From positions 1-40,126 of the forward strand of contig JAJQEA010000213.1 of assembly GCA_021201905.1 (NCBI GenBank): DNA of 40,126 nucleotides. The letters are read 5' to 3'. The DNA is from Clostridia bacterium (GTDB lineage: Bacteria; Bacillota; Clostridia; Lachnospirales; Lachnospiraceae). Under the pieces are notes generated by a model. That model worked only from the letters and a program-made list of their open reading frames with translations, was not told where the DNA came from and made no database searches. The position numbers and the translations under genes were made by a program. Position 1 is the first letter of the stretch, and every line of letters begins with the position of its first letter. This document shows, one piece after another, positions 22,260 to 34,768 of the stretch.

Positions 22260-22273
22260 GGTAGATGTAAATA

Positions 22274-22362
22274 AACGGGGAGCTCACTTAAGTGGGCTGA
22301 GAGTAAGCTGTTCATGCTTAGACCCATTACCTGATTTGGATAATGCCAACGTAGGGACCATA
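22274..22362 (+). ncRNA. TPP riboswitch (THI element)
   Basis: The two conserved halves are clear: GGGCTGAGA (22293-22302 region) and ACCTGATTTGGATAATGCC followed by AACGTAGGGA (to about 22358). A variable arm TAAGC/GCTTA separates them. It senses thiamine pyrophosphate. The terminator that follows means high TPP should stop transcription before thiD. Confidence 0.97.
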
Positions 22363-22376
22363 ACGGACGATTGCCG

Positions 22377-31007: not shown

Positions 31008-31926
31008 ATGGATCAGAAAAAAAGGAAAGAGCAGGATACGGGGCGTCATCATCCTGGTTTTACTGGCCGTCATGCTGGTAAGCGGTGCCATGAGCATTCA
31101 CAGCTGGATGGAGGACAAGAGGACCAGGGAAGAATATGAGAGGCTGGCCGAGCTGGCCAGGGAGACCACGGCCCAGCCGTCCACGGAGGCGGAGACACAG
31201 CCTGGGGAGCCGGAGACAGAGCCCTATGTATCTCCAATCAACTTTGAGGAGCTGATGAAGGAAAATCCGGATACCATCGGATGGATCCGGGTGCCGGATA
31301 CCAACATTGATTATCCCATTGTCCAGGGAGAGGACAATGATTTCTACCTGAACCATGATTTTTACGGCAAGGAGAATATTGCGGGCGCCATTTACCTGGA
31401 TTTTGAGAGCCAGGGAGATTTTGTGGGGCGGAACAATGTGCTGTACGGCCACAATATGAAAAACGGGAGCATGTTCAAGGATGTGAACCGGTACAAGGAC
31501 GAGGCGTATTTCAAGGAGCACCAGTTTTTCAGCATCTACACGCCAGACCGGGAAATCAGGTTAAAGGCAGTGGCCGCCTACTACGGGGAGGTGCAGCCCA
31601 TTGTGCGCAAGACCAGGTTTAAATCCCAGGAATCCTTTGACGCCTTTGTGCATGAGATGGTAAAGCCGTGCAGCTACGGCGGCGAGATTACATATCCGGC
31701 CAAGACCCTGTACACCCTGGTTACATGCAGCTACGAAATCAACGATGCCAGAACCTTCCTGTTTGCCGTGGAGGTGGATGAGGACGGAAATCAAATCCAG
31801 CCTGACGATGTATTCTTACAGCGCATGGATGAGCTGATGGGGGACAAGACACAGGACAAGACCCAAGAGACAGCACAGGAAAACCTTCAGGAAACAGCGG
31901 ACAGTGCAAAGGAAAGCCAACAGTAG
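31008..31926 (+). pseudogene. Class B sortase, N-terminal one-base frameshift
   Basis: The natural start is ATG 31008 (MDQKK), but an A7 run at 31017-31023 puts the next part out of frame. With six A residues the protein reads on into RIRGVIILVLLAVMLVSG, a signal anchor, and gives 305 residues. The frame from 31072 carries the whole catalytic domain: GWIRVPDTNIDYPIVQG, catalytic His in NVLYGHNMKNGSMF, Cys in LYTLVTCSYE, and Arg in NDARTFLFAVEV, all typical of sortase B, which joins surface proteins to the cell wall. A weak internal start at 31072 would give a protein with a shortened anchor. The tail is rich in T, Q, E and K. The upstream purine-rich AGGAAAGGA is about 13 bases from the ATG. 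Confidence 0.85.
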
Positions 31927-31942
31927 GAAATGATTATATATG

Positions 31943-31983
31943 ACAGCCATGAATTCCCAGATAAAGGATTTATGGCTGTTTTT
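31943..31983 (+). terminator. Intrinsic terminator after the sortase gene
   Basis: ACAGCCAT (31943-31950) pairs with ATGGCTGT (31972-31979), followed by TTTTT. Confidence 0.88.
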
Positions 31984-32029
31984 ACAATTATTTATACCTT
32001 TTTCCTGCATAAAAAAACGTATTTGGGTA

Positions 32030-32058
32030 TTGGAAAACAGAACGAGTTATGTTATACT
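32030..32058 (+). promoter_or_regulatory. Promoter of the amino-acid ABC transporter operon
   Basis: TTGGAA (32030-32035), 17 bases, TATACT (32053-32058). Transcription should begin near 32065, leaving a leader of about 170 bases before the first gene. Confidence 0.75.
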
Positions 32059-32061
32059 AAG

Positions 32062-32191
32062 CACGTTAGGCGCATATATGCTTAAGAAAGTAAAGGCGCC
32101 GTGTTTAATAGGGCAAGGTTTTAGCTGTTTGGGATTGCCGGTCATCAGATGACAGTAGAGTCATACCTGTGAGGATGGGTGTGGCTTTTTT
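32062..32191 (+). promoter_or_regulatory. Three-way transcription attenuator / orphan riboswitch candidate
   Basis: Upstream helices: 32062-32064 plus 32069-32073 with 32096-32103 (CAC/GTG and GGCGC/GCGCC), and 32112-32116 with 32135-32139 (GGCAA/TTGCC). Then four switching segments: segment 1 GTCAT (32141-32145) pairs with segment 2 ATGAC (32149-32153); segment 2 can instead pair with segment 3 GTCAT (32160-32164); segment 3 GTCATACC (32160-32167) pairs with segment 4 GGTGTGGC (32178-32185), followed by T6. So 1:2 permits the terminator and 2:3 prevents it. No TPP, lysine, glycine, SAM, T-box or guanidine consensus was recognised. Confidence 0.7.
32078..32152 (+). CDS. Possible 24-residue leader peptide
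   Basis: ATG 32078 to TGA 32150-32152 encodes MLKKVKAPCLIG and so on, ending CLGLPVIR. A weak TTAGG lies eight bases before. The last codons (Leu-Gly-Leu-Pro-Val-Ile-Arg) run through the first segment of the switching hairpins, and the stop codon lies at the start of the second. In classical amino-acid attenuators the leader stop lies at this place. The branched-chain residues could be the sensed ones, but the codon bias is slight. Confidence 0.4.
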   Translation: MLKKVKAPCLIGQGFSCLGLPVIR

Positions 32192-32235
32192 CTTAGACAG
32201 TAAAGCCTGGAACATTTATAAGAGGAGAGATTATT

Positions 32236-33180
32236 ATGAAAATGAGTTCAAAGAAAGTTTTAGGCCTGATTCTGGCCGGCGTCCTTGCTGCCGGTTCCCT
32301 GACAGCATGCGGCGGAGGCGGCACAACAGCCACAGCAGCTGACACAAAGGCAGAGGCAACAACCGCAGCCGGCGATGCCAAGGCAGAGAGTGATGCCCCG
32401 GCAGATACCACGGCGGCGGACAGCGGAGAGAAAAAGACCCTGCGCGTGGCTATGGAATGCGCATATGCTCCTTACAACTGGACACAGCCTGATGATTCCA
32501 ATGGCGCGGTGGCCATTGCGGACAGCAATGAATTTGCTTACGGATATGATGTCATGATGGCAAAGAAGATTTGCGAGGAGCTGGGCTATGACCTGGAAAT
32601 CGTACGTCTGGACTGGGATTCCCTGATTCCGGCTGTCACCACAGGACAGGTTGACTGTGTCATCGCAGGACAGTCCATTACCTCTGAGCGTCTTCAGGCA
32701 GTGGATTTCACTGAGCCATATTACTACGCAACCATCGTTACCCTGGTAAAGGAAGGCAGCAAGTACGCGGATGCCAAGAGCGTTGCGGATCTGGCTGGCG
32801 CTACCTGTACTTCCCAGCAGAGCACCATCTGGTACAACACCTGTCTGCCCCAGATTCAGGATGCCAATGTACTGGCAGCCACTGCCAGCGCTCCTGACAT
32901 GCTGATGTCCTTAAACGCTGACAAGTGCGACCTGGTTGTCACAGACCAGCCTACCGGCAAGGGCGCCCTCATCGCTTATCCTAACTTCAAGATGATTGAG
33001 TTTGGCGGCGGCGACGCTGATTTCCAGGTAACGGATGAAGATATCAACATCGGTATTTCCTTAAAGAAGGGAAATGCAGAGTTAAAGGATGCCATCAACA
33101 GCGTTCTCACAAAGATGACAAAGGATGACTTCTCCAAAATGATGGATGAAGCTATCTCTGTTCAGCCTCTGGCAAACTAA
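32236..33180 (+). CDS. Amino-acid ABC transporter, substrate-binding lipoprotein
   Basis: A 314-residue extracellular solute-binding protein of family 3. The lipoprotein signal ends at Cys25 in AAGSLTACGGGG, followed by an Ala/Thr/Glu-rich linker of about 40 residues. The periplasmic-binding fold then begins LRVAMECAYAPYNW and includes GYDVMMAKKICEELGY, LDWDSLIPAVTTGQVDCVIAG and MSxTSERLQAVDFTEPYY-like sequence (here SITSERLQAVDFTEPYY). In polar amino-acid systems these motifs bind the alpha-carboxyl and amino groups; the side-chain preference cannot be read. GAGGAG lies before the ATG. It is first in a three-gene operon behind an attenuator. Confidence 0.95.
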   Translation: MKMSSKKVLGLILAGVLAAGSLTACGGGGTTATAADTKAEATTAAGDAKAESDAPADTTAADSGEKKTLRVAMECAYAPYNWTQPDDSNGAVAIADSNEFAYGYDVMMAKKICEELGYDLEIVRLDWDSLIPAVTTGQVDCVIAGQSITSERLQAVDFTEPYYYATIVTLVKEGSKYADAKSVADLAGATCTSQQSTIWYNTCLPQIQDANVLAATASAPDMLMSLNADKCDLVVTDQPTGKGALIAYPNFKMIEFGGGDADFQVTDEDINIGISLKKGNAELKDAINSVLTKMTKDDFSKMMDEAISVQPLAN

Positions 33181-33224: not shown

Positions 33225-34028
33225 ATGCCAACAGATTTTTTCGGCCGTGTTATGGTCGTATTCAACCGATACGGTATGTCAATGCTCCAGGGCGCGGGCG
33301 TCAGCCTTAAGATTGCCCTGGTAGGTACTCTGGTGGGCTGCATCATAGGCTTTGCCGTGGGTATTGTCCAGACCATACCAAATGAGCGGGGGGACAACCC
33401 GGTAAAGAGGGCCGTGCTCTGGGTCGTGAAACTGATTCTGAACGCCTATGTGGAGTTCTTCCGCGGTACGCCCATGATGGCCCAGGCCATGTTTATTTAT
33501 TACGGGCTTCTGCCCATGTTAGGAATCAACATGTCCATGTGGGGCGCCGCCTATTTCATTCTTTCCATCAATACAGGCGCTTACATGGCTGAGACAGTCC
33601 GAGGCGGTATCCTTTCCATTGACCCGGGCCAGACAGAGGGAGCAAAGGCCATCGGCATGACCCATGTACAGACCATGCTCTATGTGATTCTGCCCCAGGC
33701 GCTGAGGAATATCATGCCTCAGATTGGCAATAACCTGATTATTAATATCAAGGACAGCTGCGTGCTCTCTGTTATCGGCGTCACGGAGCTGCTGTATAAG
33801 ACCAAGGCTGCCGCAGGAGCCCTGTACATGAATTTCGAGGCATATACCATCACCATGATCGTATATTTCATCATGACATTCACCTGTTCCAGGATCCTGC
33901 GCTGGTGGGAAAACAGGATGGACGGCGCGGACAACTACGACCTGGCCACCACCGATACCCTGGCCCATACCAGCGGCATGTACCGGTTCCCGGATGAAAA
34001 GGATAAAAAGAAGGAGGATGCGCGATGA
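33225..34028 (+). CDS. Amino-acid ABC transporter, permease
   Basis: A 267-residue inner-membrane subunit of the HisM/GlnP type. It shows GAGVSLKIALVGTLVGCIIG, the family EFFRGTPMMAQAMFIYYGLL near residue 80, and the EAA loop GAKAIGMTHVQTMLYVILPQALRNIMP near residue 140 that docks to the ATPase. About five membrane segments. The C-terminal 30 residues are charged. AAGGAGAAGGG lies before the ATG, and the gene follows the binding protein by 44 bases and overlaps the ATPase gene by four, so expression is coupled. Confidence 0.95.
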   Translation: MPTDFFGRVMVVFNRYGMSMLQGAGVSLKIALVGTLVGCIIGFAVGIVQTIPNERGDNPVKRAVLWVVKLILNAYVEFFRGTPMMAQAMFIYYGLLPMLGINMSMWGAAYFILSINTGAYMAETVRGGILSIDPGQTEGAKAIGMTHVQTMLYVILPQALRNIMPQIGNNLIINIKDSCVLSVIGVTELLYKTKAAAGALYMNFEAYTITMIVYFIMTFTCSRILRWWENRMDGADNYDLATTDTLAHTSGMYRFPDEKDKKKEDAR

Positions 34029-34768
34029 AAGGAGACAGTATACTAGAAATCCGTCATTTGAGCAAAACCTTCGGTACCAATCCTGTGCTTAAGGATATTG
34101 ACTTTTCAGTCAGCAGCGGGGATGTGACCTGCATCATCGGCGCGTCGGGTTCCGGAAAATCCACACTGCTCAGATGCCTGAATCTTTTGGAAACGCCTAC
34201 CACGGGGGAAATCATGTACCATGGAACCAATATTGCCGATAAAAAGGTCAATGCGCCCCAGTACCGCTCCAAGGTGGGAATGGTGTTCCAGAGCTTTAAC
34301 CTGTTTAACAACATGACCGTGTTGGAGAACTGTATAATCGGACAGGTGAAGGTGCTTAAGAAGAACAAGACAGATGCCCATAAGAATGCCATGTACTATC
34401 TGGAAAAGGTGGGAATGGCGCCGTATATCAACGCCAAGCCCAGACAGCTTTCCGGCGGACAGAAGCAGAGAGTGGCCATTGCCAGGGCATTGGCCATGGA
34501 ACCGGAGGTGCTGCTGTTTGACGAGCCCACCTCGGCTCTGGATCCCCAGATGGTGGGTGAGGTGCTGGAGGTCATGCGAAAGCTGGCCGGAGAGGGCCTT
34601 ACCATGATTATCGTCACACATGAAATGGCTTTTGCCAGGGATGTGTCCAGCCATGTGGCGTTTATGGCAGGGGGAGTGATTGTGGAGGAGGGAGAACCCT
34701 CTCAGATATTCGGAGCCCCCAAACAGCTTCAGACTCAGGAGTTTTTAAGCAGATTTATGCATGGGTGA
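34025..34768 (+). CDS. Amino-acid ABC transporter, ATP-binding protein
   Basis: A 247-residue ATPase of the GlnQ/HisP type. Walker A GASGSGKST near residue 39, Q-loop VGMVFQSFNLF near 83, signature LSGGQKQRVAIARALAM near 140, Walker B LLFDEPTSALDPQ near 160 and the switch histidine in IIVTHEM near 195 are all intact. The ATGA overlap with the permease gene points to translational coupling. It ends the operon and a bidirectional terminator follows. Confidence 0.97.
   Translation: MKGDSILEIRHLSKTFGTNPVLKDIDFSVSSGDVTCIIGASGSGKSTLLRCLNLLETPTTGEIMYHGTNIADKKVNAPQYRSKVGMVFQSFNLFNNMTVLENCIIGQVKVLKKNKTDAHKNAMYYLEKVGMAPYINAKPRQLSGGQKQRVAIARALAMEPEVLLFDEPTSALDPQMVGEVLEVMRKLAGEGLTMIIVTHEMAFARDVSSHVAFMAGGVIVEEGEPSQIFGAPKQLQTQEFLSRFMHG

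Follow-up and report, generated by a model that had tools for sequence, protein, structure and literature searches.

What reads the terminator in front of the amino-acid ABC transporter operon in this stretch of Lachnospiraceae DNA? In the window, by which we mean the whole stretch of 40,126 nucleotides that was analysed, the operon encodes on the + strand a family 3 amino-acid substrate-binding protein (SBP, 32236..33180; PF00497, with TIGR01096 as the best NCBIfam model, below cut-off), an amino-acid ABC permease (33225..34028; PF00528, with TIGR01726 above cut-off) and an amino-acid ABC ATPase (34025..34768; PF00005). Upstream of it is a promoter-like site (32030..32058, +), composed of the −35 element TTGGAA (32030-32035), a spacer of 17 nt and an extended −10 element TATACT (32053-32058) preceded by TG. 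Since a scan of 6 kb gave 8 promoter-like sites, against 5.7 in shuffles, our promoter call rests on conservation across 8 relatives, all of which keep the −10 TATACT in an alignment anchored on that −10. The stretch downstream of 32058 is therefore probably transcribed, as a leader of about 127 nt (32065..32191, +) that runs from a start at about 32065, as inferred from the −10, through the end of a T-run. A class B sortase gene (31072-31926, +) lies directly 5' of the leader promoter. Judged by its named relatives, the genome is Enterocloster-like.

The preliminary description had read this leader as a three-way transcription switch of unclassified type. The coordinates of the upstream helices, the pairing segments and the terminator all proved correct on the sequence. 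From 5' to 3', and all on the + strand, the leader contains hairpin P1 (32069..32100, arms 32069-32073 and 32096-32100), hairpin P2 (32112..32139, arms 32112-32116 and 32135-32139), segment 1 (GTCAT, 32141-32145), segment 2 (ATGAC, 32149-32153) and segment 3 (GTCAT, 32160-32164). Segments 2 and 3 form the 2:3 hairpin, and an intrinsic terminator (32157..32191) follows, with hairpin arms at 32160-32167 and 32178-32185 and T6 at 32186-32191. The reading as a transcription attenuator before an amino-acid ABC transporter, in which segment 3 is common to the 2:3 hairpin and the terminator, thus stood. The 1:2 pairing, the third element of the proposed switch, is present but weak: in 2 of 8 relatives one of its five pairs is broken (U-A to G-A) without compensation.

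Could P1 and P2 be the ligand-binding part of a new riboswitch, as the preliminary description had suggested, forming an aptamer for lysine or another ligand that steers the terminator? It had recognized no known class, and an Rfam 15 search agreed. The sole gathering-score match in the window was a TPP riboswitch (RF00059, 56 bits, 22266-22375, +). The covariance model of the lysine riboswitch (RF00168) gave no match in the leader, no other Rfam 15 family (T-box included if it is part of that release) reached its gathering score there, and at E up to 10 there were 7 matches in 31930-32260, none overlapping 32062-32191. With its terminator, the leader outperformed its shuffles in folding (z −2.75), 2 of 200 being as good. 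The part from 32065 to 32156, with the terminator excluded, folded no better than shuffles (z −0.51; 61 of 200), which argues against an aptamer.

Conservation of the upstream half speaks on both sides. A search of 61 genomes gave the leader in its entirety in 8, every one from the window's genus and the window's own genome among them, and seven full-leader rows form a single clade in the SBP tree (support 98/86). In favour of an aptamer, one P1 pair shows a double-sided change in 3 of 8 relatives, four P1 pairs are kept in all 8, and CUGUUU and CAUCAGAUGACA are invariant in all eight full leaders. Against it, P2 shows no double change and loses two of its five pairs in C. porci (L008). In the leader alignment the P2 and 1:2 rows are each 95% paired, again with no double change. 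Covariation was thus seen in a single P1 pair, and neither in P2 nor in 1:2; with an upstream part confined to one clade and one covarying pair, a new riboswitch was not borne out, and we regard it as unlikely.

Lysine is nevertheless suggested by the homologous operons. We took the relatives' transporter loci as the best 80 of 219 relatives from a scan of genome contigs. In a cmscan of 19 homologous loci a lysine riboswitch preceded the gene in 9, which had been preselected for a motif, and 10 were negative; this is a point in favour of a lysine aptamer. When these best 80 loci were scanned for the lysine motif, 4 were flagged, all within those 9. Of the proteins encoded at the 9 loci, two (L041, L043) are distant and sit on long branches. 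Since lysine riboswitches precede homologous operons, lysine or a related amino acid is plausibly the substrate of the transporter. At L030, L032, L034, L115, L117, L124 and L129, in other Clostridia, such a riboswitch stands upstream of the SBP gene of a homologous transporter operon, and other relatives of those operons have hexaloop terminators or plain leaders in place of the lysine riboswitch. All 17 genomes of the genus contain lysine riboswitches; the window's genome has two, before dapA-like and AgcS-like genes (named by eye).

Leader-peptide attenuation, the second mechanism suggested earlier, is very improbable. The window contains a frame with Lys codons (MLKKVK...), two 5-codon frames are shared, one by all 8 leaders and the other by 7 of them, and an ATG frame (MT..) occurs in 7 of 8, in two different lengths. 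However, the Lys frame is full-length in one leader of eight, with a different frame end in L002, and the shared frames sit in invariant sequence without a Shine-Dalgarno sequence common to all. No conserved frame with a Shine-Dalgarno sequence was found over the 8 leaders, and the peptide proposal was not sustained.

What the earlier reading overlooked is that the 2:3 hairpin is a hexaloop hairpin, probably of ANTAR type. According to Ramesh et al. (2012; PMC3369931), the hexaloops of ANTAR targets follow a rule of A at position 1 and G at position 4. In the window the 2:3 element is a mini-hairpin, AUGAC[AGUAGA]GUCAU (32149..32164, +), in which AC/GU closes a loop of 6 nt; it is a predicted antiterminator and a predicted protein site. 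As in ANTAR targets, it overlaps an intrinsic terminator, the GUCAU at 32160-32164 being common to the hexaloop hairpin and to the terminator 5' arm. The predicted stability is about −17 kcal/mol for the terminator versus −3.4 for the mini-hairpin. The terminator is thus favoured by ~13 kcal/mol, and a helper would therefore be needed for the mini-hairpin to prevail.

Among 15 related leaders, G4 occurs together with A1 in 10 and together with G1 in 2, so that R1 with G4 is found in 12. The three that fail are the window, whose loop AGUAGA has A1 but A4, L056 (GAGAAA, without A1 and G4) and L008 of C. porci, with a 5-nt loop. Loop position 4 in the window is 32157, an A where 12 of the 15 leaders carry G. 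GAC and GUCA are invariant in all 15, so that GAC[loop]GUC and the terminator extend beyond the full-leader clade. Sisters that lack the rest of the leader keep this hexaloop-terminator half, a further point against an aptamer upstream. In 13 distinct rows the outermost 2:3 pair is A-U in eight, G-U in two and G-C in one, with two misses, and the next-outer pair is U-A in eleven, with two misses. Covariation of the 2:3 hairpin in the 15 leaders was not above shuffles (184 of 500). An Rfam search of 15 hexaloop-pattern loci gave a single match, a tRNA.

Many homologs elsewhere in Lachnospiraceae, and in Blautia, have a short leader in which this same loop falls within a terminator close to the promoter, on the 5' arm of its hairpin. 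The 81 SBP leaders contain 42 C-G-closed hexaloops that overlap a terminator arm, and 18 of them are of the A1/G4 type (binomial 1.7e-11 against 1/16, a value that ignores base composition and kinship), and three of these 18 (L059, L077, L124) look incidental. Within the window's genus, a GAC-type pattern gave 18 matches, and its reversed control likewise 18. This transporter is the one place in the genus at which the GAC-type unit is seen to recur, with nine of the 18 matches, spread over 9 of 17 genomes; the other nine matches lie elsewhere. Among glnA-like leaders of the genus, a well-placed A1/G4 hexaloop was seen by eye in 2 of 7 (L209, L210); by eye, none was found in the glnA-like leader of the window's own genome.

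We also searched for a second hexaloop. None of the eight full leaders has an A1/G4 hexaloop with a stem of at least 3 bp upstream of 2:3, and in the other 7 leaders the search gave one 3-bp candidate, in the L057 transcript. The upstream 85 nt were considered as the first ANTAR hairpin: a by-eye candidate, A[RCUGUU]U in the P2 loop, has G4 in 8 of 8 leaders, but position 1 is G in 5 of them and several have stems with mismatches, and it was not accepted. Two overlapping hexaloops are possible in the Blautia-type leaders L095, L101, L113, L116 and L119, namely UGC[AAAAGC]GCA and GC[AAUGGA]GC or GC[AACGGA]GC.

We then examined whether the hexaloop-terminator unit extends over the family, using 150 same-family genomes. 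A loose pattern matched in 89 of 150 genomes versus 43 of 150 for its reversed control, coding matches included, and 30 fetched loci of this pattern included glutamine synthetase III, P-II and ammonium-transporter genes. Our argument is therefore based on a strict pattern (TATANT, 4-34 nt, GCAANGRVGC, 6-36 nt, GYBYCTTTT), sharpened on loose-pattern matches from the same genomes and itself requiring a −10 within 34 nt. It matched 47 sites, which lie in 38 of the 150 genomes, and its reversed control matched none. All 47 sites were kept, including chance-like ones (e.g. G064, G168), and an overlapping double match in G023 was counted once. The stem has at least 4 bp in 33 of the 47. Stem positions 3-5, which are free in the strict pattern, covary, with 107 of 141 cells paired against a shuffle mean of 81.6 (0 of 5000 shuffles as high).

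Variants of the loop were rarer. A base other than A at position 1 was matched at 12 sites, spread over 11 of the 150 genomes, against 6 matches for the reversed control; five of the 12 have a stem of at least 4 bp, all five being G1. A base other than G at position 4 was matched at 11 sites, again spread over 11 of the 150 genomes, against 4 matches for the reversed control; one was an A1/G4 site rematched, and a stem of at least 4 bp was present in 1 of the 9 others listed. As judged from these patterns, loop positions 1 and 4 matter in the family-wide unit.

Of 30 strict-pattern loci fetched, 6 had no central match and 1 had no ORF, leaving 23 with a downstream ORF. Eighteen of these ORFs are nitrogen, glutamine or amino-acid-uptake genes: glutamine synthetase III (GS-III, 4), ammonium transporter (4), glutamate dehydrogenase (2), glutamate synthase (1), PurF (3), AsnB (1), CarA (2) and the amino-acid carrier AgcS (1). 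The remaining five are SpoVT, a CPA2 antiporter, 2-dehydropantoate reductase, a Na+/H+ antiporter and a RelA/SpoT-like gene. Single-hexaloop terminator leaders were found at L151, L155, L162, L164 and L222-L251, before genes that include GS-III, ammonium transporter, P-II, PurF, CarA and AsnB. One such leader, L228 (G138:C31), precedes the gene for stage V sporulation protein T. From the −10 to the base of the 6-bp stem the spacing is 5-10 nt in 31 of 47 strict sites, and TTGACA lies 16-17 nt 5' of the −10 in 6 of the 13 sites listed. This spacing implies that most of the transcripts have no second upstream hairpin, if that promoter is used.

Is a suitable protein encoded? The window's genome has one ANTAR gene (G000:C336; PF03861, E 1.4e-16), directly behind a glnA-like gene (named by eye). 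Each of the 17 genus genomes has one or two ANTAR genes, and 131 of 150 family genomes have at least one. Among the genomes tested, an ANTAR gene was present in all 23 that have the hexaloop-terminator unit in their SBP leader (from 33 loci labelled by eye), and also in 15 of the 17 that do not have it there. The loose pattern was more frequent with ANTAR than without it (85 of 131 versus 4 of 19 genomes, p 0.0004); for the strict pattern the association was not significant (36 of 131 versus 2 of 19, p 0.16). Sixteen of 45 strict sites lie at most 40 kb from an ANTAR gene, two of the 47 sites being left out as their genomes lack ANTAR, and this linkage may reflect nothing more than the clustering of nitrogen genes. 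Fifteen genus genomes have a match to the leader region. In 10 of them a single contig carries both the SBP leader region and the ANTAR gene, at a distance of 10-27 kb; in one the distance is 63 kb, and in four, the window's genome included, the two are on different contigs.

Because an A1+G4 hexaloop, its overlap with a terminator and nitrogen genes make up the published signature of ANTAR targets, we lean towards reading the leader as a nitrogen-responsive transcription attenuator of ANTAR type. This reading covers the hexaloop-terminator half, and the first 85 nt of the leader stand outside it. Computation supplies the competing folds, the conservation of the loop among relatives, the occurrence of the loop-terminator unit in front of nitrogen genes across the family and the ANTAR gene in the genome, and on these a mechanism can be proposed. 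By default, the nascent RNA would fold the terminator and the transporter would be off. Under nitrogen limitation, the presumed signal, the glnA-linked ANTAR protein would grip AUGAC[loop]GUCAU; the gripped hexaloop would keep segment 3 out of the terminator, and transcription would continue, if control runs in this direction.

A real nitrogen-regulon element of the same hexaloop-terminator design could also be read by a factor other than an ANTAR protein. The single hexaloop, the 5-10 nt spacing that leaves no room for a first hairpin and the strict pattern's lack of a significant tie to ANTAR are consistent with this, but the loop rule at positions 1 and 4, the nitrogen genes and an ANTAR gene neighbouring a glnA-like gene weigh against it, and we think such a factor improbable.

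The A at loop position 4 bears on the window's own copy. Sister species have AGUGGA (L002) or AAUGGA loops. Because position 4 is A in the window, ANTAR binding is predicted to be weaker there than in the sister species, and this copy may be weakened. An assembly error may also account for the A4, as one genome of the window's species was seen. In this genome the element might instead be no more than a terminator that leaks or is decaying, with a basal level as its effect. In PMC3369931, a change of the same type, G56A in loop 2 of the EutV target eutP, reduced induction, and in the same genus L066 and L067 have no such terminator in the part of the leader covered. The stem, the −10 and the terminator of the window are nonetheless intact and conserved, and we find a decayed element rather unlikely. 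Under the preferred ANTAR-type reading, the sister species offer a natural comparison at loop position 4, a base important in laboratory mutants of the EutV target.

For the family as a whole, we tentatively propose, with somewhat less confidence than for the ANTAR-type reading of the window leader, that Lachnospiraceae run a nitrogen regulon through a minimal attenuator, with one A1/G4 hexaloop near the transcript 5' end that overlaps a terminator, a glnA-linked ANTAR protein as its reader and no second hairpin. Its genes would be those for GS-III, ammonium transporter, glutamate synthase and dehydrogenase, glutamine amidotransferases and amino-acid importers. If this is true, a large gut-bacterial family has a nitrogen regulon under RNA-binding antitermination, and the rule of two hexaloops for ANTAR proteins is put to the test. 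A search of a library of open-access papers pointed to no single-hexaloop ANTAR target.

Compared with known systems, the element resembles the targets of EutV (eut), NasR (nasF) and AmiR (amiE), as described in PMC3369931, in the 6-nt loop, which has A1 and G4 in 10 of 15 relatives, on a short stem, in the overlap with the terminator 5' arm, in the nitrogen genes and in the ANTAR gene in the genome; the AC/GU closing pairs of the window hairpin are like those of eutP P1. Unlike those targets, one hexaloop was found in the window leader instead of two, the family-wide unit stands close behind the −10, and the window loop has A4. The known target comprises two hexaloops, and deletion of P1 ablated eutP induction (PMC3369931); as one hexaloop was found where two are required and P1 is essential in eutP, the window leader is by definition not a member of the ANTAR targets, though it may work alike. 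The lysine riboswitch (RF00168), which heads homologous operons in other Clostridia, is absent from the window leader. In clostridia, the glnA-linked ANTAR regulator is NitR/GlnR. As in that system, the ANTAR gene of the window's genome is directly behind a glnA-like gene, whereas in the present case the target RNA precedes the operon of an amino-acid transporter.
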